Positions 6,171 to 27,731 of a stretch of DNA of 35,850 nucleotides are shown piece by piece. Numbering within the stretch: the first letter of the stretch is position 1; each line of letters opens with the position of its first letter. The translations under genes were made by a program, and so were the position numbers. The notes beneath the pieces were generated by a model, which was not told the DNA's origin, did not search any database, and saw only the letters and a program-made list of their open reading frames with translations. This DNA is from a virus, in IMG/VR virus record IMGVR_UViG_3300047550_002227, positions 1 through 35,850 of that record. The stretch is one strand, 5' to 3'.

Positions 6171-6176
6171 ATAAAG

Positions 6177-6202: not shown

Positions 6203-6225
6203 TTAAAAGATGATAGGAGGCCATT

Positions 6226-7256: not shown

Positions 7257-7259
7257 ATT

Positions 7260-9131: not shown

Positions 9132-9164
9132 TTTTTAAAAACTCCACTTATAATTAGAACTGTT

Positions 9165-11528: not shown

Positions 11529-12248
11529 ATGCCTGTTTCTAAATCCATGGACTTTCCCACAAGCAAAAAATCTTCTTATGCTGCACAAGTTGTAGAAACA
11601 CAAACAACAAATACTGATGTATTAATTAACTATGTTCCTGTTCCTGGACCTATGGGGCCTCAAGGACCTGCTGGACCTATGGGACCTTCAGGACCTGCTG
11701 GAAAGGACGGGATTCAAGGCCCCAAAGGCGAGAGAGGCACACCTGGTAAAGACGGTCTAAGTTCCTTGTCTGCGTCTGGACAGCAAGCAGGATGGGCATC
11801 ATATTTTAATCTAAATAGAAAACCTATAAATCTTGGTGTTAACTATGGAGATGATGGATGGGTAAAGGTTTGGGTAGATTCAAAAGGTAGCAATACAAAC
11901 GAAAAATACTTACCAGAAGGATGTACCAGTCTTTGGAATGCAGAGCAAAGAATGCTTAATTTTCATGGACTTAAAATTGGATCACAGGTATTTGTAACTT
12001 ATAATTTTGAACTTACTACTGAGTCTAATAATACAGAAGTTTGGATGAGAACATTTTTCCCTAAATCTACCACTGAAATTTCACAGTTTGTAGCATCATT
12101 AAAATACCAATATGTCTACAATATGTATGTAACACAACACTTTTTTATAGAAGACAACGCTATGTGGAACTCTGGGGCGGTACCTCAAATTAGAACCGAT
12201 TATGACTCATCCGTAATTATGAATTCCATATACGTCAGCGTGGTATAA
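11529..12248 (+). CDS. collagen-like fibre protein
   Basis: 239 residues. A 39-residue N-terminal lead is followed by 13 Gly-X-Y triplets (40-78; GPMGPQGPAGPMGPSGPAG then charged triplets) and a 160-residue beta-rich head. The head ends IYVSVV, like the product of 12663..13229. Proline is frequent in the X position. The last codons GTG GTA TAA carry the -10 box of the next gene. Likely a trimeric fibre on the tail or capsid. The collagen part has the charged KGE/KGD triplets typical of bacterial and phage collagens. Confidence 0.75.
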   Translation: MPVSKSMDFPTSKKSSYAAQVVETQTTNTDVLINYVPVPGPMGPQGPAGPMGPSGPAGKDGIQGPKGERGTPGKDGLSSLSASGQQAGWASYFNLNRKPINLGVNYGDDGWVKVWVDSKGSNTNEKYLPEGCTSLWNAEQRMLNFHGLKIGSQVFVTYNFELTTESNNTEVWMRTFFPKSTTEISQFVASLKYQYVYNMYVTQHFFIEDNAMWNSGAVPQIRTDYDSSVIMNSIYVSVV

Positions 12249-13246: not shown

Positions 13247-14296
13247 GTGGCAGCAGAAGACATTGGTGGCATATGGAATGTAAAGCAACCAGGATATGAA
13301 GATAAGGCTGATATACAAGCAGCACTTAAGTTATTCCTGTATGGAGACTATAATTTTGATACTACAGCCCCGATTGGTGATCAAAAAACAGATTTAGCAA
13401 ACAATGATGGGTTAGCCAGACATTTACAAGATTTAAGAGAAGATGTAGATAGAGTAGATAATCGAGGAATTGGTTCTGATTATTTAACTATAAATCAAAT
13501 ACAAGCAATTTCATCTCCAACTGACGGATATATTGTTATGGCATCAGACTCTACTGGCGCAGCAGTTCAGTCAACTTATGGAATTGCTCTTTATCAAAAT
13601 GAAGAACCAACAACTAACCTAACAAACGGAATAGTCTGGATAGATAAAGACTCTGATAGTAAAGATATATATGTCTATGATTCTTCTGATTTTGTTAAAG
13701 TAGGAACATATACTGATGCCAAAGGTGATTTAATTGTTGGTTTTGATCAAGGAATTACTCAAATTTTACCAGTAGGAAGCACTGGAAAAGTTTTAACTGC
13801 AGATTCGAGTGCACCTTTAGGAATTTCTTGGACTGATTTAGACTATGAAACAAATAAAAATATATCTTCTATGTATTTTGGAAATTACTCAGATACAAGT
13901 TTAACTGGAATACAATTAAATGGTGTTAATGAAAATGGAACATTAAAGACAATTGATTCTGATGATATTGAGTTAGCAATAACAAAGAGTGCATCGTCAA
14001 CAAAAACAAAAATTACATTTACTGGTGTCTGTAGACCAACAACAGATACAAATATTGAAGCATTTATTGGATTACAGAGAAAGATTAATTCTGGATCATA
14101 CTCAACTATAAATGTTGGGTTAATATCTAAAGAATTAGTAAGTTCGCATTTTGAATGGCTAGACACTCATAATGCTACAACTGGAGATATTATTACTTAT
14201 AGATTAATTAATATTACTCCCTCTGGATACCTTGCAAATGTCATAACACAAAGATTTGGCGAAACATCAGATACTTTTATTGTGGAGGAAATCTAA
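13247..14296 (+). CDS. virion fibre/appendage protein
   Basis: 349 residues from a GTG with GGGGGTG 7 nt upstream. The N-terminal helix segment (EDKADIQAALKLFLYGDYNFD) and coiled-coil stretch (ARHLQDLREDVDRVDNRGIG) are followed by a middle block, AKGDLIVGFD ... VGSTGKVLTADSSAPLGISW. That block is a phrase typical of phage tail-fibre and appendage proteins. The C-terminal 140 residues are a beta-rich head. The role is probably host binding or fibre trimerisation. Confidence 0.65.
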   Translation: MAAEDIGGIWNVKQPGYEDKADIQAALKLFLYGDYNFDTTAPIGDQKTDLANNDGLARHLQDLREDVDRVDNRGIGSDYLTINQIQAISSPTDGYIVMASDSTGAAVQSTYGIALYQNEEPTTNLTNGIVWIDKDSDSKDIYVYDSSDFVKVGTYTDAKGDLIVGFDQGITQILPVGSTGKVLTADSSAPLGISWTDLDYETNKNISSMYFGNYSDTSLTGIQLNGVNENGTLKTIDSDDIELAITKSASSTKTKITFTGVCRPTTDTNIEAFIGLQRKINSGSYSTINVGLISKELVSSHFEWLDTHNATTGDIITYRLINITPSGYLANVITQRFGETSDTFIVEEI

Positions 14297-14297
14297 T

Positions 14298-14930
14298 ATG
14301 GCAAATCTAGCGTCGCAAAGCAAAGTAGCATATATGTATGATGAAGGAAGTAATTTATGGTACGCTATTGCTGGTGTTGCAAATACCAATGTTCCATATA
14401 CATGGACACAGGCTCATACTTTTGGTTCTACAGTAACAGTTAATGATGTTATTAAGGCAAAAGGTGGAGTTAACATATTTCAAAATCCAAATGCTAGAGA
14501 TGCTGCAATAACTTCACCAACAGAAGGTACCGTATGTTTTGTAGAGCAAACTAATAGTGGTACAGATATAAGTCAGGTTCAATATTATAATGGAACCAAA
14601 TGGGTTGGGTTATTGGATAGTGTTGTTTTTAATGAAAAAACTGCTAACTATACACTTGTTTTAGGAGATGCTGGAAAAACAGTAACAATTAATTCTGGCT
14701 CAGATACAACAATTACAGTTCCTTTAAATTCATCTGTGCCATTTGAAATTGGTCAAAGAATAGACATAATTAGAGTTGGTTCAGGCAATGTTACTTTTAG
14801 TGGAGCAACAGTAGCAGTTATAATTAATAGTAAAAATTCAAATAAAAAAATTGCTGCAAGGTATTCTGGTGCAACCTTAATTAAGTATGCTACCGATACT
14901 TGGGTCTTACTTGGCGATTTGACGGCGTAG
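14298..14930 (+). CDS. virion appendage protein sharing a tip domain
   Basis: 210 residues; the ATG at 14298 follows GGAGG by 8 nt and the previous stop by 1 nt; a frame from 14256 is rejected. The last 80 residues (from NEKTANYTLV to the end, with YATDTWVLLGDLTA) are homologous to the end of the 623-residue fibre at 20479..22350 (RATDTWVLIGDLATA). The middle has FVEQ ... VQYYNGTKWVG, a recurrent phage-fibre strand pair. Likely a short fibre carrying the same tip. Confidence 0.65.
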   Translation: MANLASQSKVAYMYDEGSNLWYAIAGVANTNVPYTWTQAHTFGSTVTVNDVIKAKGGVNIFQNPNARDAAITSPTEGTVCFVEQTNSGTDISQVQYYNGTKWVGLLDSVVFNEKTANYTLVLGDAGKTVTINSGSDTTITVPLNSSVPFEIGQRIDIIRVGSGNVTFSGATVAVIINSKNSNKKIAARYSGATLIKYATDTWVLLGDLTA

Positions 14931-14937
14931 GTGTCCA

Positions 14938-15981
14938 ATGCTAAATTCATTATGGACATTTTTAGCAAAAGGTATGGGATCAGTACCCAACCTACTTGGA
15001 TTAACAAAAAATCAAGCAAGACAATCATTGCAGAATGCAGGATTTAATTATGGAACAGAAATAGAAGAGGTTCAAGATAATGAATCTTTAACTGGATTAG
15101 TTAAATCACAAGATGTTCCAGCAAATACATTATTAGATTACGAAAGTACTGTTAACTATAAACTTCACTCATTTTCTTTTTCTCCATTTGGTGTTTTTGG
15201 TTTTTCTCCATTTGGTGTTTTTGGTTTTTCTCCATTTGCTGTTTTTGGTTTTTCTCCATTTGGAGTGTTTTCTTTTACACCAGGACCGATAGAGTGTCCT
15301 CAACCAGGAGCATGGTCAGAGTGGTCTGCTTGGGACATAGGCCCATGGGGTCCATGGGGTGAATGTGAGGCAGATGGATACAGAAGACAATATAGAACAT
15401 ATACAAGAACAAGAACAAGAACAATATATACATTAGTATCAGGAAACTGTATTGCTGGAACTGAAACTCAAACAGAAACTATGGAAGATGTAAATGTTGA
15501 GGTTTGTGGCACTCCAGCCTTCAACTTCATGCCAACATTTGCTGTCTTTAGTTTTACTCCAGGATTTAGCGTATTTACATTTACACCAGAACCATCATTC
15601 AACTTCATGCCAACGTTCGGAGTGTTTAGTTTTACGCCAGCATTTGCAGTCTTTAGTTTTACACCAGAACCATCATTCAACTTCATGCCAACGTTCGGAG
15701 TGTTTAGTTTTACGCCAGCATTTGCAGTCTTTAGTTTTACACCAGAACCATCATTCAACTTCATGCCAACATTTGCTGTATTTAGTTTTACTCCAGCATT
15801 TAGCGTATTTAGTTTTACTCCAGCATTTAGCGTATTTAGTTTTACTCCAGCATTTAGTGTCTTTAGTTTTACACCAGAACCATCGTTTAACTTTATGCCA
15901 ACGTTCGGAGTGTTTAGTTTTACTCCAACATTTGCCGTCTTTAGTTTTACCCCAGAGGCTAGTTTTAACTTTTCACCCTAG
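14938..15981 (+). CDS. PASTA + thrombospondin-1-like protein with aromatic repeats
   Basis: 347 residues. Order: PASTA-like domain (15-76: VPNLLGLTKNQARQSLQNAG ... V-Y); five units like FSPFGVFG (80-115); a thrombospondin-type-1-like domain (120-190) with W126-x-x-W129-x-x-W132, an Arg/Thr ladder (TYTRTRTRT) and four cysteines C120, C143, C171 and C190; then 154 residues of units like FSFTPAFAV and FNFMPTFGV up to the end. AGGTG lies 5-6 nt before the ATG. PASTA suggests peptidoglycan or lipid II binding. The repeats suggest a beta-rich rod or adhesive. I know of no described family with this combination. It shares the repeat with 22382..23590. Confidence 0.8.
   Translation: MLNSLWTFLAKGMGSVPNLLGLTKNQARQSLQNAGFNYGTEIEEVQDNESLTGLVKSQDVPANTLLDYESTVNYKLHSFSFSPFGVFGFSPFGVFGFSPFAVFGFSPFGVFSFTPGPIECPQPGAWSEWSAWDIGPWGPWGECEADGYRRQYRTYTRTRTRTIYTLVSGNCIAGTETQTETMEDVNVEVCGTPAFNFMPTFAVFSFTPGFSVFTFTPEPSFNFMPTFGVFSFTPAFAVFSFTPEPSFNFMPTFGVFSFTPAFAVFSFTPEPSFNFMPTFAVFSFTPAFSVFSFTPAFSVFSFTPAFSVFSFTPEPSFNFMPTFGVFSFTPTFAVFSFTPEASFNFSP
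15175..15282 (+). repeat. 24-nt repeat array coding FSPFGVFG units
   Basis: Four and a half units of 8 residues (F-S/T-P-F-G/A-V-F-G/S), nearly identical at DNA level in the first three. Confidence 0.8.
15517..15978 (+). repeat. 78-nt super-repeat coding FxFxP units
   Basis: Units of 9+9+8 residues. Two neighbouring 78-nt copies (15598-15675 and 15676-15753) are identical base for base, which points to a recent tandem duplication. A 27-nt unit (coding AFSVFSFTP) is further repeated near 15790-15870. Confidence 0.85.
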
Positions 15982-15992
15982 GGCTAAACTAT

Positions 15993-16553
15993 TTAATTAG
16001 GAAATTTGCCTAACCATTCTTTTGCTCTTGGAGTTAATCCTTTCCAAGAACTCCAGTCTTCTCCGCCATTTGTCATTTTATAGGCGATTTGTGCATTTAC
16101 AACTGGATTAAATAAGTCAGCATTGTGATCTAAATCATACTTTTTACGACGATCTGGACCAAGCATTCCAAGCATGTTTATTTGAAAAATACCATATGAA
16201 CTGTCTCCAGTTTCAGTATTTCCATTGAATGCAAATGGTCGACCATTACTTTCTCTCTTAGCAATAGCCCAAGCCTCCTTAAGATTTTGACCTTCAAATC
16301 CTACTAATTTTAATAGATTTTTAAGATCTTTATCAGATAGAGATGTAGCATTTTTATATTTTTCTAACTGATCTTCTTTAGCCTTAGAAACACTTTTGGC
16401 CACTTCCGTGGCCTCAATAGTCTCTTCAAGCGTGATAGTTTTACTATCTAATCGGTTTTCAGAAGCATTGGCAATGTTTGACCAAACGGAAAACATCACC
16501 AATATGCTGAGTGTTCCAATGATATTCCTATTATTATTCATAAAGTTAATCAT
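15993..16553 (-). CDS. lysozyme-fold transglycosylase, likely exported lysin
   Basis: 186 residues; AGGAGG lies 6 nt before the ATG. Signal-like N-terminus: basic MNNNRN, hydrophobic 11-25, possible cleavage after ANA at 30. After a charged helix comes a transglycosylase/lysozyme-like core: AIAKRESNG with E101 as the likely acid, GDSSYGIFQINM (116-127), NPVVNAQIAYKM (149-160) and DWSSWKG. It should cut peptidoglycan glycan strands. It is encoded on the opposite strand to the fibres, with its own promoter and a leader hairpin, so expression is separately controlled. It could be the endolysin or a virion lysin. Confidence 0.75.
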   Translation of the reverse strand: MINFMNNNRNIIGTLSILVMFSVWSNIANASENRLDSKTITLEETIEATEVAKSVSKAKEDQLEKYKNATSLSDKDLKNLLKLVGFEGQNLKEAWAIAKRESNGRPFAFNGNTETGDSSYGIFQINMLGMLGPDRRKKYDLDHNADLFNPVVNAQIAYKMTNGGEDWSSWKGLTPRAKEWLGKFPN

Positions 16554-16574
16554 AGTTTCCTCCTTAGAAACGGA

Positions 16575-16597
16575 ATGACACCTTTTAAGGGTGTCAT
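16575..16597 (-). promoter_or_regulatory. leader hairpin of the lysin mRNA
   Basis: ATGACACC and GGTGTCAT form a perfect 8-bp stem with a 7-nt loop, between the -10 box (16608-16613) and the ribosome site of the leftward lysin. It should lie within about 5-10 nt of the mRNA 5' end. It may stabilise the mRNA or control its translation. No T-tract follows, so it is not a terminator. Confidence 0.6.
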
Positions 16598-16607
16598 ATT
16601 ACTTCTA

Positions 16608-16650
16608 AGTATAACACAATTTAGTCAAGGTAGTCAAATAATGATATAAT
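16608..16650. promoter_or_regulatory. divergent promoters of lysin and fibre gene
   Basis: Minus strand TGTTATACT (16608-16616), with TTGACT 18 nt further up, serves the lysin. Plus strand TGATATAAT (16642-16650) lies 8 nt before the ATG at 16659. Two direct TAGTCAA copies (16622-16628 and 16631-16637) lie between them and could be a shared regulator site. Confidence 0.55.
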
Positions 16651-16658
16651 TACTGTCT

Positions 16659-17216
16659 ATGGCAGATACAACAGATAATTATAATTTAAAATTTCCAGAA
16701 GCAACAGATTCTGTAAATGTTCATAATGATATTAAAAAGTTAGCAGATTCTGTTGATACAGCATTACAATCTTTAGACGCATCTAATGTTAGAATAAAGG
16801 TTATTAATAAAACATCAAATAATATTTCTGCTGGAAAACCAGTTTATGCTGCAACATGGTTTGATCCTGATTTAAATCAAGAAAGAGGTCAGAATAATGG
16901 AAGAACAGTTATTAAACCTTTTACCTCAGAGTTATCTGATAATTATCCATTTTTAGGATTAACAAAAGAACAAATAAATGCAAATGGAGGAACTGGAGAA
17001 GTTGTTGTTTCTGGAGTCCTTTCTGGACAAAATATAAATACATCATCTTTTCAAGCAGGAGATCTTTTATATCCAACTTCTGGTGGTGGACTATCTACTA
17101 CTGTAAATGGTGGAGCAATTGGTGTAGTTGCTTTAGCAGCAACGAATAATGGAGTTATAGTTGTTCAAGCAAAAGGTAATGGAACATGGGGAGCATTAAA
17201 GGCTGGATTAGCCTAA
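16659..17216 (+). CDS. virion fibre/appendage protein (185 aa)
   Basis: The N-terminus NYNLKFPEATDSVNVHNDIKKLADSVDTALQ is the phrase with which many phage structural appendage proteins begin. The remaining 130 residues are Gly/Asn/Val-rich beta repeats (GEVVVSGVLSGQNINTSSFQ). No ribosome site; the -10 box lies 8 nt before the ATG. Presumably a capsid or tail decoration protein. Confidence 0.6.
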   Translation: MADTTDNYNLKFPEATDSVNVHNDIKKLADSVDTALQSLDASNVRIKVINKTSNNISAGKPVYAATWFDPDLNQERGQNNGRTVIKPFTSELSDNYPFLGLTKEQINANGGTGEVVVSGVLSGQNINTSSFQAGDLLYPTSGGGLSTTVNGGAIGVVALAATNNGVIVVQAKGNGTWGALKAGLA

Positions 17217-17219
17217 ATA

Positions 17220-17228
17220 TGATATAAT
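17220..17228 (+). promoter_or_regulatory. extended -10 promoter, leaderless type
   Basis: TGATATAAT, exactly 6 nt before the ATG at 17235; no ribosome site. Confidence 0.65.
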
Positions 17229-17234
17229 CGACAT

Positions 17235-17624
17235 ATGGCTACCTTCCGAAATCAACCCACAGACTCATATGCTTTAGGTTCTGCTCCACCAGAAGTTCGT
17301 TGGACGGTAGTTAGAGGAGACTCTGCAGCATTTAGAGTTTATGTAACAAACGATGCAAGAGAGCCACTATATTTAAATGATTGGGAAATTGCAATGGACA
17401 TTTATCGTCCATCTACTAGTCAAGTTATAGTTTCATTATCACCAGAACCAATTGAATTTCAAGACTCAGAAGGAACATTTACAGTTAACTTAACATCTTC
17501 ACAATCAGAACTTTTAGAGACAGGAGATATCTTTGACATTCAACTCACAGAACTTTTGTCTGAGGGAAGAGTCTGGACGGTAGCCAAAGGATCAATGGTT
17601 ATCCTTGAAGATGTTACGCAATGA
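17235..17624 (+). CDS. small virion beta-sandwich protein 3
   Basis: 129 residues, the third member of the family of 10307..10705 and 12265..12663: EVRWTVVRGDSAAFRVYV at about 23-40, then a strand-rich body and a terminal GSMVILEDV strand. It overlaps the next gene by 4 nt (ATGA), again pairing the sandwich protein with a downstream partner. Predicted leaderless. Confidence 0.6.
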   Translation: MATFRNQPTDSYALGSAPPEVRWTVVRGDSAAFRVYVTNDAREPLYLNDWEIAMDIYRPSTSQVIVSLSPEPIEFQDSEGTFTVNLTSSQSELLETGDIFDIQLTELLSEGRVWTVAKGSMVILEDVTQ

Positions 17625-17869
17625 GCAATTATAATTTAATCCCAGTAAATCAAGAAGTTTTTAATACAACTCATAAAAAAGCACATGCACAAATTAAAGA
17701 ACTTGATAAAAGATATATCAGAATAGATCATATACAACCAAAAGCAAGAATTGAAGAAGTTTTACCTTTTCGTGTACAGTTTATCAATGTTAGCGTGTTT
17801 GGGTATTCAAAAAATAATCCACCCCCAATACCGCTTCAAATTATTGGATATAGTAATTATATTCTATAA
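17621..17869 (+). CDS. small conserved structural-region protein (82 aa)
   Basis: 82 residues, basic helical first half (THKKAHAQIKELDKRYIRID), then a beta-rich end with FRVQFINVSVFGYSKNNPPP and PLQIIGYSNYIL. The second half resembles endings of other actinophage structural proteins I recall, but no function is known. Starts in the ATGA of the previous stop. Confidence 0.55.
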   Translation: MSNYNLIPVNQEVFNTTHKKAHAQIKELDKRYIRIDHIQPKARIEEVLPFRVQFINVSVFGYSKNNPPPIPLQIIGYSNYIL

Positions 17870-17880
17870 TAAAAAGGAGT

Positions 17881-17886
17881 TATAAT
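17881..17886 (+). promoter_or_regulatory. -10 box, leaderless type
   Basis: TATAAT, exactly 6 nt before the ATG at 17893, without the TGn extension. AAGGAG at 17874-17879 is too far from the ATG to act as its ribosome site. Confidence 0.5.
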
Positions 17887-17892
17887 ACCATC

Positions 17893-18339
17893 ATGGCAAA
17901 AATATCAATACCTAATCTAAAGACAAAGTTTGAGACTGGGGATCGCCCCACGCAACAAGATTATGAGGATTTAATTGATTCAGCCTCAGCCCGTTCAACC
18001 GACCTTGGTTCAATGGGTAATAATGAAAATACAATTACAGGTATTGAAAATGCCACAGTAATTGATAACTTTGACGCCACAGAATGGCGTATGGTTAAGT
18101 ATATTGTTTCTATCGCAAAAGTAACTGCGGGAGATAATAAATTCTATGCAACAGAGTTGACCATCTTGGTAGACGGCACAAATGTGAATGTCTCTGAGTA
18201 TGGCACAATAGACAATGATGGGAATATTGGCACCGTTAGCGTCTCCAGGGTTGGAAATACAGTATCCTTAACGGTTACTCCAGATCCTGCGATTAAGCCA
18301 GTCACAGTTCGTTATGCACGAATTGGACTTAAGGCATAA
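17893..18339 (+). CDS. fibre protein with shared C-terminal tip
   Basis: 148 residues. A short N-terminal helix (QQDYEDLIDSASARSTDLGS) is followed by a tip domain, from WRMVKYIVSIAKVTAGDNKF to the end. The tip resembles the end of the 524-residue fibre downstream (YRSAEFLVKIANGSHTDVSK...): same strand order with VS/ITEY and GSVSV blocks. From here to about 19.9 kb codons are richer in C/G than in the flanking fibre genes, so this block may have a different origin. Confidence 0.6.
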   Translation: MAKISIPNLKTKFETGDRPTQQDYEDLIDSASARSTDLGSMGNNENTITGIENATVIDNFDATEWRMVKYIVSIAKVTAGDNKFYATELTILVDGTNVNVSEYGTIDNDGNIGTVSVSRVGNTVSLTVTPDPAIKPVTVRYARIGLKA

Positions 18340-18355
18340 ACAAGGAGATAAATAA

Positions 18356-19930
18356 ATGGCAACAGTAAACAAAGACTTTAAAGTAAAGAATGGTCTCATC
18401 GTTGAAGGCACAACAGCCACAGTTAACAACTATGACATTCTTACAAAGAAGACAGACGATCAAAACTATATCGTCAATTTAATTGGTGGTACAGCCACCT
18501 CAGCAAACGAAGCAAACAAGGTTGTAAAGCGTGATGGCTCAGGCAACTTTGCTGCAGGAGTAATAACAGCAGACCTCGTTGGTGATGTAACTGGTAATGC
18601 AGATACAGCAACAGCACTTGAGACTTCTCGTACAATCACATTGGGCGGAGACCTTTCAGGTTCTGTTTCATTTGATGGTACAGCAAACGTAACATTGACA
18701 GCAACAGTTGCTTCATCTTTTGCAACAGATGCAGAAGTTGCAACAGCAAAGTCTGAGGCAATTTCAGATGCTGCAGCAGATGCCACATCTAAGGCTAACG
18801 CAGCACAAGCAGCAGCAATTTCTACAGCAGCATCAGATGCTACTACAAAGGCTAACGCTGCTGAAAATGCTGCTAAGGCATATACAGATGCTCGTGAAAC
18901 TGCTATTACAACAGCATATCAATCATATGCTGATACAGCAGAGTCAGATGCAAAGGCTTATGCTGATCAAAAGGTTGCAGATCTTGTAGATTCTGCTCCA
19001 GCACTTCTTGATACACTCAATGAATTGGCTGCAGCAATTGGCGATGACGCCAACTTTGCAGCAAACCTTGCTACCTCAGTAGGAGAAAAGGTTGCAAAGG
19101 CTGGAGACACCATGACTGGTGCTCTTGTTCTTCATGCAGACCCAGTAAATAATCTTGAAGCAGCAACTAAGGCTTATGTAGATACAGCAGCATCAGCAGC
19201 ACAGTCAAATGCTGAAGATTATGCTGATGGACTTGCAGGAAACTATGATCCAGCAGGTTCAGCATCAACAGCATTGACAAATGCTAACTCTTATACAGAC
19301 ACAGCAATCTCTGGTGTAAATACAACAATTAATAACCTTACAACAGATGACATTGCAGAAGGCGCAAACGAATACTTTACAGATGCTAAGGCAAAGGATT
19401 CAGCAGCAGCACTTCTTACAACTGCAACATTGACAAATATCACAATTACTGGTACAGGTAATGGTGGTCTTGTAATTACCGCAGAAAACGGTGTTGCAGA
19501 TTCTGATACAGATGATCTTGATGAAGGTACAACAAATCTTTACTTCACAAATGCTCGTGCAGTAGATGCTCTTGAAGCAGTTGTTCCTAACTTTACAGCA
19601 GTTGAACTTAATTCAATTGCAAAGCAGGTAGCAGCAACCGCTTCTATCGCTACAGCAAGCACAAACAGCGCAATTTCATGGTTGAAGGCAGACTATCGTT
19701 CTGCTGAATTCCTTGTTAAGATTGCTAATGGATCTCATACAGATGTATCCAAGGTTATCTTGACACTTGACACTTCAGATAATGTCGCTATTACAGAATA
19801 CGCAATGGTTGGAACAAACGGTTCTCTTGGATCAGTTTCAGCAGATGTTTCTGGCAACGATGTTCGTCTTCGTGTCACTACCGCCAACAACAACTCAACA
19901 GTTGCTGTTATCGGAACACTTTTAGCATAA
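18356..19930 (+). CDS. long Ala-rich tail-fibre protein (524 aa)
   Basis: AAGGAGAT lies 8 nt before the ATG. N-terminal anchor MATVNKDFKVKNGLIVEG is repeated in the next gene. Then VVKRDGSGNFAAG and DLVGDVTGNADTATAL, a fibre repeat phrase. Residues about 120-220 are an Ala-rich coiled coil, and two 'DDL-EGT-NLYFT--RA' motifs lie near 340-410. A beta tip from about 445 matches 17893..18339. This is the typical plan of a trimeric receptor-binding tail fibre. Confidence 0.75.
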   Translation: MATVNKDFKVKNGLIVEGTTATVNNYDILTKKTDDQNYIVNLIGGTATSANEANKVVKRDGSGNFAAGVITADLVGDVTGNADTATALETSRTITLGGDLSGSVSFDGTANVTLTATVASSFATDAEVATAKSEAISDAAADATSKANAAQAAAISTAASDATTKANAAENAAKAYTDARETAITTAYQSYADTAESDAKAYADQKVADLVDSAPALLDTLNELAAAIGDDANFAANLATSVGEKVAKAGDTMTGALVLHADPVNNLEAATKAYVDTAASAAQSNAEDYADGLAGNYDPAGSASTALTNANSYTDTAISGVNTTINNLTTDDIAEGANEYFTDAKAKDSAAALLTTATLTNITITGTGNGGLVITAENGVADSDTDDLDEGTTNLYFTNARAVDALEAVVPNFTAVELNSIAKQVAATASIATASTNSAISWLKADYRSAEFLVKIANGSHTDVSKVILTLDTSDNVAITEYAMVGTNGSLGSVSADVSGNDVRLRVTTANNNSTVAVIGTLLA

Positions 19931-19959
19931 AAAATAAATAAAAAGAGGGAGTGGTAATC

Positions 19960-20415
19960 TTGGCAACAGTCAACAAAGACTTCAAGGTTAAAAATGGACT
20001 TATCGTCACTGGTGGCGGTGAGTTTGGCGGAGCGGTAGTTGTAGGAGAACCTACATTATCTACCCATGCTGCTACTAAATCATATGTTGATTCAGTAATA
20101 GGTGGCATGACAGTTGGAGGTACCGCTCCCTCTACACCAGATAATGGTGATCTATGGTTTGATACATTAACAGAAAGAGTTAATGTTCATTATAATGGTT
20201 CTTGGCTAACAATCGCAACAATAGACGATACTCAGAGTCTTCCACAACATATTCACGATACAGCAATCGATGGTACTGGTTTTATAGTATCTCAATTTTA
20301 TGAAGGCGGAAGTTTTAATAGCCCACAAGGAGCAGGTTTAGATGCTGGAGGTCCAACTACAAATCAGTGGACTCTTGTATTTGATGGAGGAAGTGCTACT
20401 GATAATTTCAACTAA
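19960..20415 (+). CDS. short fibre protein with duplicated anchor
   Basis: 151 residues from a TTG at 19960, chosen because it makes the N-terminus ATVNKDFKVKNGLIV identical to that of the preceding fibre and because GGGAG lies 8 nt upstream. After the anchor come DLWFDTLTERVNVHYNGSW, a virion strand pair, and a Gly/Asp-rich end. The anchor probably docks both proteins at the same virion site, with alternative heads. Confidence 0.65.
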   Translation: MATVNKDFKVKNGLIVTGGGEFGGAVVVGEPTLSTHAATKSYVDSVIGGMTVGGTAPSTPDNGDLWFDTLTERVNVHYNGSWLTIATIDDTQSLPQHIHDTAIDGTGFIVSQFYEGGSFNSPQGAGLDAGGPTTNQWTLVFDGGSATDNFN

Positions 20416-20422
20416 AAATTGA

Positions 20423-20461
20423 TGTTATAATTAGCACAGAAATAAACTGGTAGAAATACCA
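20423..20461 (+). promoter_or_regulatory. extended -10 promoter with GAAA-loop leader hairpin
   Basis: TGTTATAAT (20423-20431), then TGGTA-GAAA-TACCA (20448-20461), a 5-bp stem with a GNRA tetraloop, directly before AAGGAG of the fibre gene at 20479. Confidence 0.5.
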
Positions 20462-20478
20462 TAAGGAGAGAATAAAAT

Positions 20479-22350
20479 ATGGCAACAAGAATGCAACAAC
20501 GCAGAGGAACCGCAGCACAATGGACTGCAGCGAATCCAACTTTAGCAGCAGGAGAAATCGGATTTGAAACCGATACCAACCAGTTCAAAATTGGAAACGG
20601 GTCTTCGGCATGGTCTGCCCTCTCCTATTTTAAAAATTTAGATGGCCTTGATGGCGTAGGTGGAATAGTAACCCTAAACGCACAAGGTATGATCGATATA
20701 GCATTAATCCCACAAGGCGTGGCATTAGATGCAGAGTTAACCCAATATATTGAAGATCATAATAATGAGACAACAGGTGTTCATGGAATTTCTAATACAG
20801 CAAATCTTGTATATCAAACAGACCTAACAACTACGGTAAATGACGCAATTTCATTAGAAGTAAATAATAGAAACGATGCAATTTCTGATGCTATTGGACA
20901 AGAAGTAACAAACCGTAACACTGCAATTGATGATGCTATTGCATTAGAAGTAACAGAGCGCAATACTGCAATTAATGATGCTATTGCCCTAGAAGTCTCT
21001 GCTAGAGATGTGGCTATTGATGATGCTATTGCTCAAGAAGTAACAGATCGTAATACTGCAATAGGAAATGAGATTGCAGCAGAAGTTTCTGATAGAAATC
21101 AGGCTATTGATGATGCTATTGCTCAAGAAGTAACAGATAGAAATAATGCAATAGGCACAGAAATTGGTACACATAATTCTGACACAACTGGTGTTCATGG
21201 AATTACAGATACAGCAGCACTTGCAACAAAAACATATGCAGACAATGCAGCATCAGCAGTAGAATCTTCTGCTTCAGCAAATCTAACTGCTCATAATACA
21301 GCAACAACAAGCGTACATGGTATTGCTGATACAGCAGCACTTGCAACAAAAACATATGCAGATGGAGCAGTTTCGACAGCAGTTGCAGCATTGACAAAGT
21401 CTTCCGTAGGACTTGGAAATGTTGATAATACATCTGATGCAAATAAGCCAATATCAACTGCAACACAGTCTGCACTTGATCTAAAGGCACCGCTTGCTTC
21501 TCCAACATTTACTGGCACAGTATCTGGAGTTACAAAAGCAATGGTTGGGCTTGGAAACGTAGACAATACAGCAGATACTGACAAGCCAGTATCAACTGCA
21601 ACACAAACAGCACTTGATGCAAAGGCCTCTTTATCTGGAGCAACATTTACAGGTGCAGTTTCTGGTACAAGTCTTACACTTTCAGGCAATTTAACAGTTA
21701 ATGGTACAACTACAACAATTAACTCTGCAAGCCTTAACTTAACAGATCCAATGATTTATGCAGGTGACGGTAATACAGGAAACACCAAAGATCTAGGACT
21801 TGTTACATCATTTAATGACGGTACATACCAACATTCTGGTATTGTTCGTGATGCATCTGATGGAAAATGGAAATTTTTCAAGGGTGTGACAGATGAGCCA
21901 ACAAGTACAATTAATTTTGCACAAGGATCTCTTGATGCATTAGCGGTTGGAGCACTTGAAGCAACAACAGTAACGCCGTCATCTGGAGTAGTATTTTCAG
22001 ATGGCACACAAACAAAAGAAGGCGTTCCTTCAAGAACTCCAATTATTCAAAAGTCCGCAGCATATACACTATCTGCACTTTCTGAAAGAGATTCTATGAT
22101 TGAAGTTTCACACACTGGCGGAACTGCTGTAGATATTACAATTCCAGCAAACTCCTCAGTTGCATATCCAGTAGGAACATCTATTGATGTTCTTCGTACA
22201 AATACTGGTGGAGTAAGAATTGTCGGAGCAGCAGGAGTAACAGTAAATGGTACACCTGGTGCATATTTAAGAGCACAATGGTCTGCAGCAACCTTATTTA
22301 AGAGAGCAACAGATACTTGGGTCTTGATAGGCGACCTCGCTACGGCGTAA
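20479..22350 (+). CDS. large tail-fibre protein with 15-residue coiled-coil repeats
   Basis: 623 residues. N-terminal 50 residues (QQRRGTAAQWTAANPTLAAG ... IGNGSSAW) are the common phage-fibre N-terminal domain. Residues 117-230 hold seven repeats of exactly 15 residues (like NTAIDDAIALEVTER; Arg at 131, 146, 161, 176, 191, 206, 221). Two TTGVHGI...ATKTYAD repeats and two 'VGLGNVDNT-D--KP-STATQ' repeats follow. The last 80 residues match the tip of 14298..14930. 15-residue periodicity suggests a right-handed coiled-coil stalk. Probably the main receptor-binding fibre. Confidence 0.75.
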   Translation: MATRMQQRRGTAAQWTAANPTLAAGEIGFETDTNQFKIGNGSSAWSALSYFKNLDGLDGVGGIVTLNAQGMIDIALIPQGVALDAELTQYIEDHNNETTGVHGISNTANLVYQTDLTTTVNDAISLEVNNRNDAISDAIGQEVTNRNTAIDDAIALEVTERNTAINDAIALEVSARDVAIDDAIAQEVTDRNTAIGNEIAAEVSDRNQAIDDAIAQEVTDRNNAIGTEIGTHNSDTTGVHGITDTAALATKTYADNAASAVESSASANLTAHNTATTSVHGIADTAALATKTYADGAVSTAVAALTKSSVGLGNVDNTSDANKPISTATQSALDLKAPLASPTFTGTVSGVTKAMVGLGNVDNTADTDKPVSTATQTALDAKASLSGATFTGAVSGTSLTLSGNLTVNGTTTTINSASLNLTDPMIYAGDGNTGNTKDLGLVTSFNDGTYQHSGIVRDASDGKWKFFKGVTDEPTSTINFAQGSLDALAVGALEATTVTPSSGVVFSDGTQTKEGVPSRTPIIQKSAAYTLSALSERDSMIEVSHTGGTAVDITIPANSSVAYPVGTSIDVLRTNTGGVRIVGAAGVTVNGTPGAYLRAQWSAATLFKRATDTWVLIGDLATA

Positions 22351-22381
22351 TAGAAATTACAAATAAAAGGAGTAGATAGTA

Positions 22382-23590
22382 ATGGCAGGTAAACTTGGAA
22401 GAAAAGCAGGTCAGCAATCATGGCCTAATGATGTAACAATTACCACTGCAACAGACGTTGGTACGAGTCGTCCATATGCTGCCTCAGCAGCATCAACAGA
22501 GGCAGGAGCCTCTGGTGTTGGAGGATCTGTAAGCCTTGCATGGTCTTTACCAGCAGGATCAGCAGAAGCATCATCTTATACCATTACTACTACTCCTTCT
22601 ACTTATTCAAAAACGGTATCTGGAACAAGCACTACATTTGAAGGACTTGCATCTAATACAGCATATACATTTACAATTAAAGCAAATAATAGTGTAGGCT
22701 CTTCTGCAGGAACAACATCTTCTTCAGTAACTGCTACTACAGTTCCTCAAGCACCAACACTTTCATCTGCAACAGATGTTGGAACAAATAGACCCTATAA
22801 CAATGGATCTGTTTCTGTTGCATTTACTGCCAACGCTACTGGTGGAAAATCAATAACAAGTTATACAGTATCTGGTGGAGGATATTCTGCTTCTGGAGCA
22901 ACTTCCCCATTGGCTCCAACAGGATACGCTACTGGTGCAACTCCAACGTTTACAGTCACTGCTACAAATGGAAATGGTACTTCATTAGCATCTTCTGCTT
23001 CTAGTGCTGTTACAGTAACAACTGTTCCAGATACACCAGCAGCACCAACAGTATCATCTCCAACGCCTTCTGCTGGAGTTAACGTTGCTGGAACTACAAC
23101 AGATAACGTATCTTGGTCTGCACCAGCAAATGGTGGAAAGGCTATTAGTCAATATACCTGGACATCTTCGGACTCAAAGTCTGGAACAACAGCAGGAACA
23201 TCGGTTTCTGTAAATCAAGAAGGTGGAACTGCTCAAACTTATCAGGTTCGTGCAGAAAATGCTAATGGTGCTGGAAATTATTCTTCTGCATCTTCTAGCG
23301 TTACAACATTCCAATTTACTCCATTCTCGGTCTTCGGCTTCTCACCATTCGGTGTATTTTCCTTCGCACCATTCTCGGTCTTCGGCTTCTCACCATTCGG
23401 TGTATTTTCCTTCGCACCATTCTCGGTCTTCGGCTTCTCACCATTCGGTGTGTTCGGCTTCTCACCATTCGGTGTGTTCGGCTTCTCACCATTCGGTGTG
23501 TTCGGCTTCTCACCATTCGGTGTGTTCGGCTTCTCACCATTCAGCGTGTTCGGCTTCTCACCAGCGTTTAACTTTGCTCCTTGGGGCTAA
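22382..23590 (+). CDS. FnIII protein ending in aromatic FSPFGVFG repeats
   Basis: 402 residues; AAAAGGAG lies 8 nt before the ATG. After a basic start come three fibronectin-III-like domains (about 13-122, 123-216, 217-309; SYTITTTPSTYS, YTFTIKANNSVGSS and SQYTW...YQVRAENANGAG are typical strands). Residues 310-402 are about eleven units of FGFSPFGV or FSFAPFSV ending FNFAPWG. The same repeat occurs in 14938..15981, and the two proteins end alike (FNFSP/FNFAP). FnIII domains in phage often bind carbohydrates on virion surfaces; the aromatic tail has no known function. Confidence 0.75.
   Translation: MAGKLGRKAGQQSWPNDVTITTATDVGTSRPYAASAASTEAGASGVGGSVSLAWSLPAGSAEASSYTITTTPSTYSKTVSGTSTTFEGLASNTAYTFTIKANNSVGSSAGTTSSSVTATTVPQAPTLSSATDVGTNRPYNNGSVSVAFTANATGGKSITSYTVSGGGYSASGATSPLAPTGYATGATPTFTVTATNGNGTSLASSASSAVTVTTVPDTPAAPTVSSPTPSAGVNVAGTTTDNVSWSAPANGGKAISQYTWTSSDSKSGTTAGTSVSVNQEGGTAQTYQVRAENANGAGNYSSASSSVTTFQFTPFSVFGFSPFGVFSFAPFSVFGFSPFGVFSFAPFSVFGFSPFGVFGFSPFGVFGFSPFGVFGFSPFGVFGFSPFSVFGFSPAFNFAPWG
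23309..23587 (+). repeat. 48-nt and 24-nt tandem repeats coding aromatic units
   Basis: A 48-nt unit occurs twice, then a 24-nt unit (TTCGGTGTGTTCGGCTTCTC + ACCA) four times with almost no base changes. The array uses TTC and GGC where the rest of the gene prefers AT-rich codons, so it looks newly expanded or acquired. Confidence 0.85.
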
Positions 23591-23632: not shown

Positions 23633-24292
23633 ATGCAAAATCAAGGAATGAGTCCAACTGCAAAATTTGGAACTAAGCCACATAAATTTTTTGAAAGACA
23701 TTTAAATAATGATCTTAATAAATTGTCTAATTTTTTATCTGATAGATATGAAAAAATAGAAAGAGCCGAAATAGATGGTGTAACTCCTTTGGGTTCTGCA
23801 GGACACGAATATTGGGTAAAATCTGGAAGTACCTCCACAGTAAAATGGAGAGAGTACAATGTTTTTCAATTTCATAGTGAAGAAATATATAATGTTTTTA
23901 AAGGTGTTAAAGATGCAACAAAAGAGGCATGTGAATATTATGATATTGACTTTGATGCACAAAACTTTATGGTTCAGGGATGGTTTAATATAACTCATAA
24001 GGGTAAAGGCAAATTAGATTGGCATGATCATGGTCAACCAGGAGCACCAAATTTTCACGGGTATTATAGTGTTAAAGCAGAGCCTTCTACAACACATTAT
24101 CATGTGTATGGAGAAGTGGTAGATCATCATAATATTGATAATAAATTAATTGTTTCTGAAATGGGTCATCAGCATGCTATGGCAGATTGGGATTGGGAAG
24201 GTCCAAGAATAACAATCGCTTACGACATTATTCCATTGGAATATTTAATTAGGGCAAATGCTGCCGAACAGCATTGGATCCCATTGTTATGA
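23633..24292 (+). CDS. 2OG-Fe(II) oxygenase-like protein, second family, copy 1
   Basis: 219 residues; GAAGGG lies about 10 nt before the ATG. The core has DWHDHGQPGAPNFHGYYSV (H131, H133), then MGHQHAMADW (H179/H181) and GPRITIAYDI (R192). This H-x-H/D, H, R order with 'GYYSV' and 'R-TIAYDI' strands fits the phage 2OG-oxygenase group whose members have SG-YYV and R-S-aFN motifs. It lies 11 nt from no obvious partner but overlaps its paralogue (24289..24966). Likely iron-dependent; substrate unknown. Confidence 0.6.
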   Translation: MQNQGMSPTAKFGTKPHKFFERHLNNDLNKLSNFLSDRYEKIERAEIDGVTPLGSAGHEYWVKSGSTSTVKWREYNVFQFHSEEIYNVFKGVKDATKEACEYYDIDFDAQNFMVQGWFNITHKGKGKLDWHDHGQPGAPNFHGYYSVKAEPSTTHYHVYGEVVDHHNIDNKLIVSEMGHQHAMADWDWEGPRITIAYDIIPLEYLIRANAAEQHWIPLL

Positions 24293-24966
24293 TAGCAATG
24301 AAGCCACCACATAAATTTTTTGAATCATTTATTGATAATGATTTAGATTTTTTATTTGACTATTTAGTAGAAAAGCAATCGGAATTACTTTCTGGTTCTT
24401 TAGCACCTATCCCCGAAGATGTTTTATCAAAGTATAACAAAGATAATGGACCAACAACACAATTAGGAAACTATTATAATATTTTTAATTTTGAAAATAA
24501 TGAAATTAAAAATTTAAAAATATCTTTATCTAATTTAACTAAAGAAGCATGTGAGTATTATAATCTTAATTATGAAGAACTGGACTTTATGATTCACGGC
24601 TGGTATAATTTAGATTATAAAACTTATGGAAGTTGGGACGAAAAAAAACAAAAAATAATGGCTGTAAATGGTGGGGTTAGTCCAATAAATAATGCCCATT
24701 CATTTCATGATCATGCAGAGGGCACAGGAGCACCAATCTTTCATGGTTATTATTGTGTTAACGCTGAACCATCTATAACATTCTATAAAATAAATAAACA
24801 AGTGTTATTTGAAAATCACAATAAAAACAATAGAGCAATAGTATCAGAAACAGGACACCCACACGGTAGAGATGATTGGTATGAGGACAAGCCAAGAATT
24901 ACAATTGCTTATGATATTGCTCCAAAAGATTCTCACGTAGTAACAGAGTTATGGACAAAATTATGA
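24289..24966 (+). CDS. 2OG-Fe(II) oxygenase-like protein, second family, copy 2
   Basis: 225 residues from the ATG in the upstream stop (ATGA). It is a clear paralogue of the preceding protein: KPPHKFFES at the start, FHDHAEGTGAPIFHGYYCV (H140, H142), ETGHPHGRDDW (H190/H192) and KPRITIAYDI (R203). A second start at 24298 is possible. The tandem copies may form a heterodimer or act on different substrates. They lie between the aromatic-repeat gene and the reductase. Confidence 0.6.
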   Translation: MIAMKPPHKFFESFIDNDLDFLFDYLVEKQSELLSGSLAPIPEDVLSKYNKDNGPTTQLGNYYNIFNFENNEIKNLKISLSNLTKEACEYYNLNYEELDFMIHGWYNLDYKTYGSWDEKKQKIMAVNGGVSPINNAHSFHDHAEGTGAPIFHGYYCVNAEPSITFYKINKQVLFENHNKNNRAIVSETGHPHGRDDWYEDKPRITIAYDIAPKDSHVVTELWTKL

Positions 24967-25179: not shown

Positions 25180-27213
25180 GTGTCAGATTTTTTTAGTTTT
25201 CGCTTGTCAGAAGATTTTATAAATGAGTATAAAACAAAAGAACCACCATTTGGATTTACAGATGCTGGTGGTAATTCACTAGGAGAGATTACGTTTATTC
25301 GTACCTACTCTCGAATGAAGGAAGATGGAACTAAAGAAAGATGGTATGAGGTTTGTCGTCGAGTAATTGAGGGCATGTATTCAGCCCAAAAGAATCACGC
25401 CAAAGAAAACAGACTCCCTTGGAATGACTATAAAGCACAGGCTTCTGCAAAAGAAGCATATCAGCGTTTGTTTGAGTTGAAGTGGACACCACCAGGGCGA
25501 GGCCTATGGTCTTTTGGCACGGCACTTACAATGGAAAAGAAAAACTCAGCAGCATTACAAAATTGTGCTATGGTATCTACAAAAGATATAGACAGAAATG
25601 ATCCAGGAACATTATTTGCTTGGGTTATGGATGCGCTTATGATGGGTGTAGGTGTAGGATTTGATACTGTCGGGGTAGAAAAAAAGTTACCTATTTATGA
25701 CCCTACAGAACCACCACAGGTTTATGAAATCCCAGATACTCGTGAGGGCTGGGTAGAATCTGTTAGATTATTAATTAACTCATTTTTAAAACCTAATATG
25801 TACATACAAGAATTTAACTATGACCTCATTCGTCCTTTAGGAGCACCTATTAAAGGGTTTGGAGGCACAGCAAGCGGTCCTGCACCACTTATACAGTTAC
25901 ACAAGCAGATAAGGTCTGTAATTGGCGGTAGGGCAGGAGAAACACTTGACTCAAGAGCAATAGTAGATATCGTTAACCTCATTGGCACCTGCGTGGTATC
26001 AGGAAATGTTAGACGATCTGCAACATTGGCTCTAGGTAATGCTCAAGATGAAGACTTTATGAATCTTAAGAATTCTGAGGTTTTCCCAGAAAGAAATTCA
26101 TTTGATCCAGAAAATCCAGGTTGGGCCTGGATGTCAAACAATTCTGTTTCTGCGACGGTAGGCACAAAGTACGAAGACTATGTAGACCTTATTGCTAATA
26201 ACGGAGAACCTGGTTTTATATGGTTAGATGTGGCAAGAAATTACGGGCGTTTAAAAGATCCTGCTGACGGAAAAGATTATAGAGTCATGGGCTTTAATCC
26301 TTGTGCAGAGCAACCTTTGGAGTCATATGAACTATGCACCTTGGTTGAAGTACATTTAAACCGTCATGAGTCTAAAGAAGATTTTTTGCGTACATTAAAG
26401 TTTGCATATTTGTATGGCAAGACGGTAACGCTGATACCAACACACTGGCAACAGACAAATGGAATTATGCAGCGTAATCGTCGCATTGGAACATCACTAA
26501 CTGGTATTGCTTCATTTTCAGACAAATTTGGTTTGCCTGTTGTGCGTGAATGGATGGACGAAGGCTATGAAACTATACGTAGATATGATCATAAATATTC
26601 TGAATGGTTATGCGTTCGTGATTCCATTAGAGTCACAACTGTTAAACCATCAGGGTCTGTATCAATTCTTTCTGGCGCAACGCCTGGAGTTCACTGGGCG
26701 CCTGGTGGAAACTATTTCTTGAGAGCAATTCGCTTTGGGAATACCGACCCAATGATTCATTTGTTCAAGGCTGCTGGATATAAAATGGAGGCTGACCTTG
26801 TATCTGCGAATACAACTGTCGTTTATTTCCCAGTACATTCTGGTCATTCAAGGTCTGAAAAAGATGTAACGTTATTTGAGAAGATTGCGCTTGCTGCTAC
26901 TGCTCAGAAATATTGGTCTGATAACGGCGTGTCTGTAACGCTTTCATTTGACAAAGAAACTGAAACAAAGCACATTGCGCCAGCGCTTCATATGTACGAA
27001 GGACAGTTAAAGGCGGTATCATTTTTACCTATGGGTAATACTGTATATCCACAACAACCATATACAGAGATTACTGAAGAGGAGTATAATAGTTATATAG
27101 GACAAATAAAGAAGATAGACTGGTCCGCTATTTACGATGGAGCAGAAAATTTGGAGGCACAGGGAGAAATGTACTGCACAACTGATGCTTGTGAGATAAG
27201 GATTAAATCATGA
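25180..27213 (+). CDS. nrdJ: adenosylcobalamin-dependent (class II) ribonucleoside-triphosphate reductase, monomeric
   Basis: 677 residues from a GTG with AAGGAGAA 6 nt upstream. All key residues of the Lactobacillus-type RTPR are present with the same spacing: C129 (LQNCAMVST) and C386 as the redox pair, N373-P-C375-A-E377 with C375 as the thiyl cysteine (11 residues before C386), and C-terminal C666-x4-C671 for reduction by thioredoxin-like donors. TTVKPSGSVSILSGATPG is the substrate-phosphate loop. It makes deoxynucleotides from NTPs for phage replication and needs vitamin B12 from the host or environment. It is followed by an overlapping oxygenase gene (ATGA), an unusual partner. Confidence 0.92.
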   Translation: MSDFFSFRLSEDFINEYKTKEPPFGFTDAGGNSLGEITFIRTYSRMKEDGTKERWYEVCRRVIEGMYSAQKNHAKENRLPWNDYKAQASAKEAYQRLFELKWTPPGRGLWSFGTALTMEKKNSAALQNCAMVSTKDIDRNDPGTLFAWVMDALMMGVGVGFDTVGVEKKLPIYDPTEPPQVYEIPDTREGWVESVRLLINSFLKPNMYIQEFNYDLIRPLGAPIKGFGGTASGPAPLIQLHKQIRSVIGGRAGETLDSRAIVDIVNLIGTCVVSGNVRRSATLALGNAQDEDFMNLKNSEVFPERNSFDPENPGWAWMSNNSVSATVGTKYEDYVDLIANNGEPGFIWLDVARNYGRLKDPADGKDYRVMGFNPCAEQPLESYELCTLVEVHLNRHESKEDFLRTLKFAYLYGKTVTLIPTHWQQTNGIMQRNRRIGTSLTGIASFSDKFGLPVVREWMDEGYETIRRYDHKYSEWLCVRDSIRVTTVKPSGSVSILSGATPGVHWAPGGNYFLRAIRFGNTDPMIHLFKAAGYKMEADLVSANTTVVYFPVHSGHSRSEKDVTLFEKIALAATAQKYWSDNGVSVTLSFDKETETKHIAPALHMYEGQLKAVSFLPMGNTVYPQQPYTEITEEEYNSYIGQIKKIDWSAIYDGAENLEAQGEMYCTTDACEIRIKS

Positions 27214-27731
27214 TAGATAAAATAAAGTATGTAGAAGAATTTATGCCAAGAGATATTGCTTTAAGGATATCTGATTATGCAAAAAAATATACAGATGATT
27301 TTCCAGAATATGGGAATAATGAACAAGAATTTACTGTTCATACATACAACGAAATAAAGGCCAGAGATCCAGAACTGTTGGATATAATGCAAGAGTATGC
27401 AATTAAAGTTTATAATTTTGTAAAAGAAAATTACGATGGCCCATTTCAAGATTTCCTTCATGAAAAAACACATATAGCAAAATTTGTTGCTGGAAAAGGA
27501 ATGCACGAACATTTTGATTCTAACAGACCAAATGACATAGCAACCTTAGTTTACTTAAATGATGATTATGTCGGAGGAGATATTTATTTTCCAAAATACA
27601 ACATATCCTATAAACCAAAGCCAGGAGATCTTCTTTGTTTTCCAGACAATCCAGACTATGTTCATGGAGTAAAGGTTATAGATTTAGGAACAAGGTATAC
27701 TGCTCCTAGATGGTTTACACGCATCGTATGA
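27210..27731 (+). CDS. prolyl-4-hydroxylase-type 2OG-Fe(II) oxygenase
   Basis: 173 residues. Catalytic set: H101 and D103 (HEHFDSN), distal H152 (YVHGV), R162 (GTRYTAPRW), the same H-to-R spacing of 10 as in 9386..10012; YLNDDYVGGDIYFP is the conserved strand pair. Short but complete. It overlaps the reductase stop by 4 nt and its own TGA is part of the next promoter. Likely a protein hydroxylase acting on virion or host proteins; a role linked to nucleotides is less likely from its motifs. Confidence 0.8.
   Translation: MIDKIKYVEEFMPRDIALRISDYAKKYTDDFPEYGNNEQEFTVHTYNEIKARDPELLDIMQEYAIKVYNFVKENYDGPFQDFLHEKTHIAKFVAGKGMHEHFDSNRPNDIATLVYLNDDYVGGDIYFPKYNISYKPKPGDLLCFPDNPDYVHGVKVIDLGTRYTAPRWFTRIV

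Follow-up and report, generated by a model that had tools for sequence, protein, structure and literature searches.

To our knowledge, the receptor-binding tips of known phages are folded domains. In T-even phages, gene 38 follows gene 37. In phage S16, gp38 is reported to sit on the gp37 trimer by means of its N-terminal domain and to display variable loops on a polyglycine lattice; it was modelled poorly in CASP13 (PMC6851490). Here we describe a locus with a comparable gene order and a different kind of repeat. The stretch analysed (positions 1 to 35,850 of IMG/VR virus record IMGVR_UViG_3300047550_002227; 35,850 nucleotides, hereafter the window) encodes two proteins with arrays of phenylalanine-rich repeats, P0001 (14938..15981, 347 aa) and P0002 (22382..23590, 402 aa), both on the + strand. 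We consider it probable, with some reserve, that each is the distal adhesin of its own tail-fibre cassette and occupies a gp38-like slot.

The likeness to gp38 is one of position and of general design. As in T-even phages, each of the two genes adjoins a fibre gene with a conserved C-terminal tip, and as in the gp38 of T2/S16-type phages, a low-complexity module dominated by one residue would lie in the receptor-contact part. However, the arrays are 31-37% Phe and lack the glycine-rich motifs of the polyglycine II sandwich, a PASTA or FnIII domain replaces the helical attachment domain, and many relatives add a Hint domain. Membership of the gp38 family was considered and rejected on the glycine feature, the modules being Phe arrays.

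Array proteins behind fibre-type genes

P0001 contains, in this order, a PASTA domain (14983..15156, residues 16-73; Pfam PF03793, E 2.9e-10), a first Phe array (15172..15285, residues 79-116), a Cys/Trp-rich domain (15286..15513) and a second, C-terminal Phe array (15517..15978, 154 aa) ending in FNFSP. P0002 consists of an FnIII part (Pfam fn3, 4.7e-10) followed by a Phe array (23309..23587, 93 aa) ending in FNFAPWG; all these segments are on the + strand. The original prediction, made from the sequence alone, had placed aromatic arrays at the two C-termini, and both were found there. It had overlooked the first array of P0001, which is located between the PASTA and Cys/Trp-rich domains and is in the FGFSPFGV register, like P0002. 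The FNF(S/A)P ending said to be common to both proteins is that of P0001, whereas P0002 ends two residues later. Similarly, the PASTA and FnIII assignments were borne out by Pfam, but the TSP1 domain had been recognised by eye only, and Pfam TSP1 gave no match in P0001 at E 0.1. AlphaFold predicts a beta hairpin at residues 148-189, within this Cys/Trp-rich domain.

The last 154 residues of P0001 include 48 Phe (31.2%), 5 Glu and no Lys, Arg or Asp, and the last 93 residues of P0002 include 34 Phe (36.6%) and no charged residue. Phe thus makes up about one third of the arrays, as claimed originally, and the near-absence of charge also holds, the five Glu of P0001 being the sole charged residues of the two C-terminal arrays. 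Across 27 other proteins drawn from the window, Phe averages 4.1%. The motif FxFxP occurs 18 times in the C-terminal array of P0001, where 2000 residue shuffles gave 2.1 on average and at most 7, and 12 times in that of P0002, where they gave 1.6 on average and at most 6. At the DNA level, Tandem Repeats Finder detected the arrays with periods of 24, 27, 78 and 132. According to a survey, aromatic residues are heavily under-represented in the low-complexity regions of prokaryotes and phages, and the longest such region in 102 phage proteomes has 115 residues (PMC6821194).

Searches of Pfam and PHROGs with P0001 and P0002 gave no match with its best stretch inside an array, in agreement with the initial view that the repeat belongs to no known class. 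A sequence search of the PDB with P0002 gave no match with its best stretch beyond residue 315, leaving the array proper unmatched. Among the open-licence PMC matches listed (titles and abstract openings, bioRxiv excluded), none dealt with phage adhesins that carry Phe-rich arrays or a Hint domain. No described class was therefore found for the module with the tools used; its kind is that of a phage fibre-tip adhesin, in which a Phe-rich module is unusual.

In the gene order of the window, a fibre-type gene encoding a tip domain directly precedes each of P0001 and P0002. The gene before P0001 encodes a short fibre-type protein (14298..14930, +; the open reading frame (ORF) opens at 14256, and the ATG at 14298 was judged the likelier start), the C-terminal part of which matches the ends of PHROGs 8780, 21510 and 18179. 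The gene before P0002 is a tail fibre gene (20479..22350, +) with an N-terminal Mtd_N domain (Pfam PF18454, E 5.6e-16). The gaps to the start of the array genes are 7 bases for P0001 and 31 bases for P0002. Both upstream proteins terminate in one shared domain of about 105 residues: tip domain 1 (14613..14927, +) ends in WVLLGDLTA and tip domain 2 (22033..22347, +) in WVLIGDLATA.

This arrangement recurs in relatives, the array ORFs of which were assigned to PASTA and FnIII classes by motif. Of the 92 FnIII-class ORFs, 83 have a homologue of 20479-22350 no more than 2.5 kb upstream and 59 have one of 14256-14930 in the same range; all 19 PASTA-class ORFs have homologues of both in that range. 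A hidden Markov model built from the two tip sequences of the window found 179 ORFs, 88 of them with a distinct next gene, defined as the longest ORF with a start no more than 400 bases on. An FnIII protein with a Phe array followed in 57 cases, a PASTA protein with a Phe array in 19, a PASTA protein with another linker in 10 and an unclassified Phe-array ORF in 1; the last case was a fusion (L133). The next gene was thus an array or PASTA-repeat protein in 87/88, a proportion obtained from loci collected through array, FnIII and PASTA queries, hence biased towards arrays, and with a rule that favours long genes. In L133 (2287-4419, 711 aa), an internal tip, a PT linker with repeats, Cys-rich segments and a Phe array form one chain.

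Because of this bias, the slot was assayed again with the tip as the only query. At least 600 stretches matched, at least 587 of them encoding relatives, of which the 80 best were retained; 71 were distinct and away from contig edges, 5 more lay at an edge and 4 were duplicate loci. By reading, the 71 next genes were classed as Phe-rich (22), YSFTP-type aromatic (7), other repeat-, Cys-, Pro- or Thr-rich (24, including 3 fused to the tip), Gly-rich (3: L286, L311 and L315) or other beta-type (1). The next gene was therefore adhesin-like or tail-like in 57/71 and unrelated or spurious in 14/71, so that most occupants of the slot, though not all, look like adhesins. Across relatives in general, the slot is mostly filled by PASTA or FnIII proteins bearing repeats, whether Phe-rich or of another kind, by Cys-rich proteins or by Gly-rich ones.

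In relatives, the gene for a Phe-array protein usually comes immediately after that for a tail fibre, which suggests that these proteins form a host-contact part of the fibre tip. By the same synteny, P0001 and P0002 are presumably virion proteins. Adhesion had been only one of several jobs proposed at the outset; it is now strengthened by gene order, by a slot of adhesin-like character and by a natural fusion that joins a tip to an array. The N-terminal segment with PASTA or FnIII would dock onto the fibre tip in the way that gp38 docks onto gp37, leaving the Phe array to face outward and make the contact.

The downstream protein might otherwise be a fibre assembly factor that chaperones the tip domain, its array binding unfolded fibre chains until it is later removed by Hint. 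T4 gp38 is reported to assist gp37 folding and then to be released (PMC12892980, PMC6851490). Phe-rich segments would also be suited to binding unfolded chains, and Hint could cut the array off. In L133 and in the three fusions of a tip with a repeat-rich protein, however, such a chaperone would be kept on the fibre, and FnIII, PASTA and Cys-rich domains are generally of the surface type. We regard this explanation as unlikely.

Spread, constraint and packing of the arrays

A search of IMG/VR with the P0002 array found 181 pattern stretches, of which 154 encode a relative; 80 loci were kept. This rules out that the arrays are confined to one genome. The array is attached to unrelated N-terminal domains, within a tail/fibre gene cluster and in many phage contigs, which upholds the idea of a mobile module. 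A second array gene was found about 8-12 kb away in 21 of 50 contigs, judged by reading the hits of the array search, which all 50 contigs match, as they must.

Units were counted in 54 distinct proteins from 84 loci. The 8-mer F-[GS]-F-[STAV]-P-F-x-V dominates (385 units), followed by 5-mers (51), 9-mers (17), 6-mers (16), 11-mers (14) and one 12-mer. Among the 8-mers, Phe is found at position 6 in 375 and Val at position 8 in 375, and position 7 (x) is G, S, R, A, N, T, P, K, Q, Y or E. The 8- and 9-residue units noticed originally both occur; the other lengths in relatives had not been foreseen. In three relatives (L197, L221 and L248), the reading frame is broken within the aromatic array, by sequencing error or in reality.

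A search with the FnIII part only matched at least 599 stretches; at least 536 of them encode relatives, of which the 80 best were retained. Of the 63 distinct tails following the FnIII domains, 62 were Phe-rich (at least 6 Phe within some 24 residues), in a sample that is array-blind yet not family-blind, since it is made of the best relatives of array-bearing proteins. The exception, L223, has a Gly-rich tail; its preceding ORF is short and lacks a tip ending, so it does not represent a swap within this slot. Unit types in the FnIII tails include FGFSPFGV, GAF, FFPP, FGFSP and FFSPP. By a simple motif count, the main unit was GAF/SAF in 23 tails, FGFSPFGV-type in 16, FFPP/FFPF in 10, a 5-mer in 8, FFxPP in 3 and another in 3. 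Phe density is thus kept across relatives while the sequence and period of the units change. In nine relatives (L263, L272, L273, L279, L287, L290, L302, L309 and L312), the aromatic array has a basic C-terminal residue (FR or FK).

The GAF-type tails raise the question of membrane activity. Hydrophobic forms rich in Gly, Ala and Phe, such as GAFGAFGAF, might insert into a membrane or lipid layer of the host as the DNA enters, in the manner of an extremely long fusion-peptide-type sequence. But Pro recurs in FGFSPFGV-, FGFSP-, FFPP- and FFSPP-type units, contrary to a common helix, and in PASTA homologues polar linkers stand at the same place; we hold this possibility to be very unlikely. Indeed, repeats of QNT, NTI, PT, TPV or TAAT often occupy the array position in PASTA homologues (in L121, L122, L123, L132 and L135 they lie between Cys-rich segments), as would be expected if the array were a passive stalk, a mere spacer between domains and one of several interchangeable repeats. 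The Phe richness of nearly all FnIII tails, the frequent location of arrays at the C-terminal end and the strong constraint on their residues make a mere spacer equally improbable.

This constraint was estimated from the proportions of nonsynonymous (pN) and synonymous (pS) differences in 54 pairs of FnIII-array proteins with 55-93% identity in the FnIII part and equal array length, drawn from 41 FnIII proteins, including that of the window. In the arrays, pS was 0.445 and pN 0.030 (ratio 0.067), against 0.356 and 0.132 (ratio 0.371) in the FnIII parts; the pairs share branches and the array units are homogenised, so these values are indicative, but the contrast is large. An earlier estimate (ratio 0.09) was discarded as its pairs had been selected by array identity. 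Coding sequence comparison thus places the array residues under strong purifying selection, more than 5 times as constrained as the adjoining FnIII domains.

In addition, the arrays of the two proteins are alike within a genome, as judged from their encoded units. The cosine between their unit spectra averaged 0.502, against 0.186 after permutation (p 5e-5, n=14 genomes; 15 were tried, and G049 was excluded because the available DNA covers only one of its two proteins), and 0.522 against 0.174 in a dereplicated subset of 8 genomes (p 5e-5). Values within genomes span 0.07 to 0.89, the window being at 0.26. In the 13 genomes sharing any 8-mers, the DNA identity of the shared 8-mers averages 0.74-0.92 (0.74 in the window, where codons differ), indicating that the match is maintained at the protein level. 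Matched C-terminal caps within genomes (17/20 by hand) were not used, as the array-ended genomes are mostly close relatives.

These data bear on the state of the array. A disordered sticky brush, resembling an over-dense FG nucleoporin, would cluster fibre tips or adhere non-specifically to hydrophobic surfaces; it would be another state of the same array and is consistent with a place in the adhesin slot. FG-repeat nucleoporins also have Phe-based repeats without a predicted fold, but in the window arrays Phe stands at about every third residue, polar spacers are hardly present and residues are strongly conserved. The near-absence of charge, the lack of a fold in AlphaFold models and a Phe density that survives changes of unit and period would suit a brush. 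A brush defined by composition only should drift, however, whereas the arrays show a far lower pN/pS than the FnIII parts and the two proteins of a genome have unit types in common. The sticky low-complexity tail of the original prediction, in its freely evolving form, therefore fits poorly, and we consider a brush somewhat unlikely.

We favour an array that packs as a repetitive aromatic lattice or sheet, exposing the variable residue of each unit (F-x-V) and taking the place of the glycine lattice of gp38. A lattice is favoured by the conservation of exact residues within a lineage together with the exchange of whole units between lineages, and a self-packing repeat fits better than a loose sticky chain because all units must suit each other. 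We place the chances of an ordered aromatic lattice at about even. A regular beta-solenoid, also suggested at first, is not supported: rung length and register are not constant, with units of 5, 6, 8, 9, 11 and 12 residues whose sequences vary widely. In AlphaFold models of P0001 and of a relative, L073, the predicted local distance difference test (pLDDT) score of the arrays was mostly 24-49; the P0001 model was poor overall (mean pLDDT 46.2), with the PASTA domain also below 55.

Hint domains in relatives

P0001 and P0002 both end in an array, and no Hint domain is present in either. In many relatives, the array runs directly into a Hint domain of about 160-190 residues. Single members matched the Pfam Hint/intein models weakly (best 1.8e-5), while a profile of 31 such domains matched 2lwy, a bacterial intein-like domain, at E 5.1e-8. 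In the L073 model, pLDDT was mostly above 90 in the Hint region. The 50 PDB matches listed by Foldseek for L073 were FnIII-bearing proteins, and VIA-align on those matches revealed the Hint fold, with Z scores of 17.0 (6y75, BIL2), 16.8 (2in0) and 16.5 (6tyy, hedgehog). Among BFVD proteins of "uncultured Caudovirales phage", the best structure match of L073 was A0A6J5NYB8 (45% identity, 460 columns), and others were A0A6J5NY54 (PASTA) and A0A6J7WKC1 (Hint); these relatives are named by domain only (Fibronectin type III, PASTA_pknB, Hint domain containing).

Among 84 distinct Hint segments, 77 share their ORF with a Phe-rich stretch. The first position is Cys in 49/84 and Ser in 32/84, the other 3 being Ser by eye, outside the aligned column. 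The block-B His is retained in 50/84 and the terminal His-Asn in 32/84. These domains share the Hint fold with bacterial intein-like (BIL) and hedgehog domains, but they are located behind the Phe array of what is probably a tail-tip protein, and only 16/84 have Cys1, block-B His and terminal His-Asn together. Hint or intein domains have been reported in phage terminase and reductase genes (PMC3556154, PMC5259590). Concerted evolution of whole Hint domains within a genome was dropped as an explanation, as, judged from the alignment without a tree, the Hints of some PASTA proteins seem closer to those of PASTA proteins in other genomes.

The better conservation of position 1 suggests that an acyl shift at the end of the array is the retained step. 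Hint could thus trim the array or link it through an acyl intermediate. A more daring version is a covalent grappling hook, in which an acyl (thio)ester formed by Hint at the array end would be attacked by a nucleophile of the host surface or of a neighbouring fibre. The aromatic tip would then be covalently fixed in a hedgehog-like reaction, and lineages without Hint would use the bare array lattice. We think this highly improbable.

Cultured relatives, neighbouring genes and the fibre-tip role

Tip domain 1 matched 264 INPHARED records by tblastn and tip domain 2 matched 246, of which 223 in each case were Gordonia phages. With the window portal as query, 237 records were hit, of which 127 belong to Streptomyces phages, with 46-48% identity among the 15 matches listed; all these counts come from cultured-phage collections in which actinophages are over-sampled. 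Judged from these sequence matches, the host of this large tailed phage is likely to be an actinobacterium. In three Gordonia phages (Ohgeesy, Stultus and Kita), the tip-bearing minor tail protein is directly followed by a gene that matches phrog_7114, a minor tail protein, over residues 217-420 of 421. This position resembles that of the window proteins, but such next genes encode 197-198 aa without a Phe array. The gene after the tip is annotated as hypothetical in Brevundimonas phage Bajun, in a PinkBerry phage and in Sulfitobacter phage EE36phi1.

Array searches of cultured phages gave no match, which is weakly informative as the BLAST low-complexity filter was on; a query with L073 including its FnIII and Hint parts gave no match in cultured phages either. 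In bacterial genomes, the array search returned 125 pattern stretches and 0 relatives. A scan with the tip alignment returned 8 loci, two of which (L319 and L320, from a Chitinophagaceae metagenome-assembled genome) have FnIII domains and Phe-rich arrays; they were not used to infer the host because they may be mis-binned phage contigs.

Several genes resembling 2-oxoglutarate (2OG)-Fe(II)-oxygenases lie at 5484-10012 (-), 23633-24966 (+) and 27210-27731 (+), near collagen-like fibre genes. Those at 9386-10012 and 27210-27731 have Pfam matches above cut-off; the others were recognised by eye, including the two genes after P0002, homologues of which follow 50 of the 92 FnIII-class array ORFs. 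Hydroxylation of the arrays by these neighbours received no support from anything tested. Collagen-like proteins of the fibre cluster are encoded at 10705-11508 (Pfam Collagen, 2.6e-9) and 11529-12248 (by eye). A lysozyme-like gene (15993-16553, -; SLT_3, 6.5e-15) lies on the opposite strand just behind P0001, and for a 1265-aa protein encoded at 27747-31544, tblastn against cultured phages gave no match at E 0.001.

Besides the sampling biases and shared branches described above, several points weigh against the assignment of P0001 and P0002 as fibre-tip adhesins. Tip and adhesin are not always paired, as the 14 unrelated or spurious next genes of the tip-only sample comprised 4 ribonucleotide reductases, 4 membrane proteins, 2 glycosyltransferases and 4 others, with 2OG-oxygenase-like and spurious ORFs also among the 14. 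AlphaFold, run on single chains only, leaves the arrays of L073 and P0001 unfolded, and mixed unit lengths in one array tell against a strict lattice. The matching of units within genomes could result from early array copying between the two genes, that is, from shared descent. Finally, none of the six cultured-phage next genes examined encodes a Phe array or has a Pfam match at E 0.1.

Altogether, a group of uncultured phages maintains, under strong selection, Phe-rich repeats some 40 to 150 residues long at the apparent fibre tip, often joined to a Hint domain. If P0001, P0002 and their relatives are indeed fibre-tip adhesins, these repeats would constitute an unusual adhesive protein material and a handle on phage attachment to uncultured bacteria, and they would provide a phage fibre in which autoprocessing could be tested.

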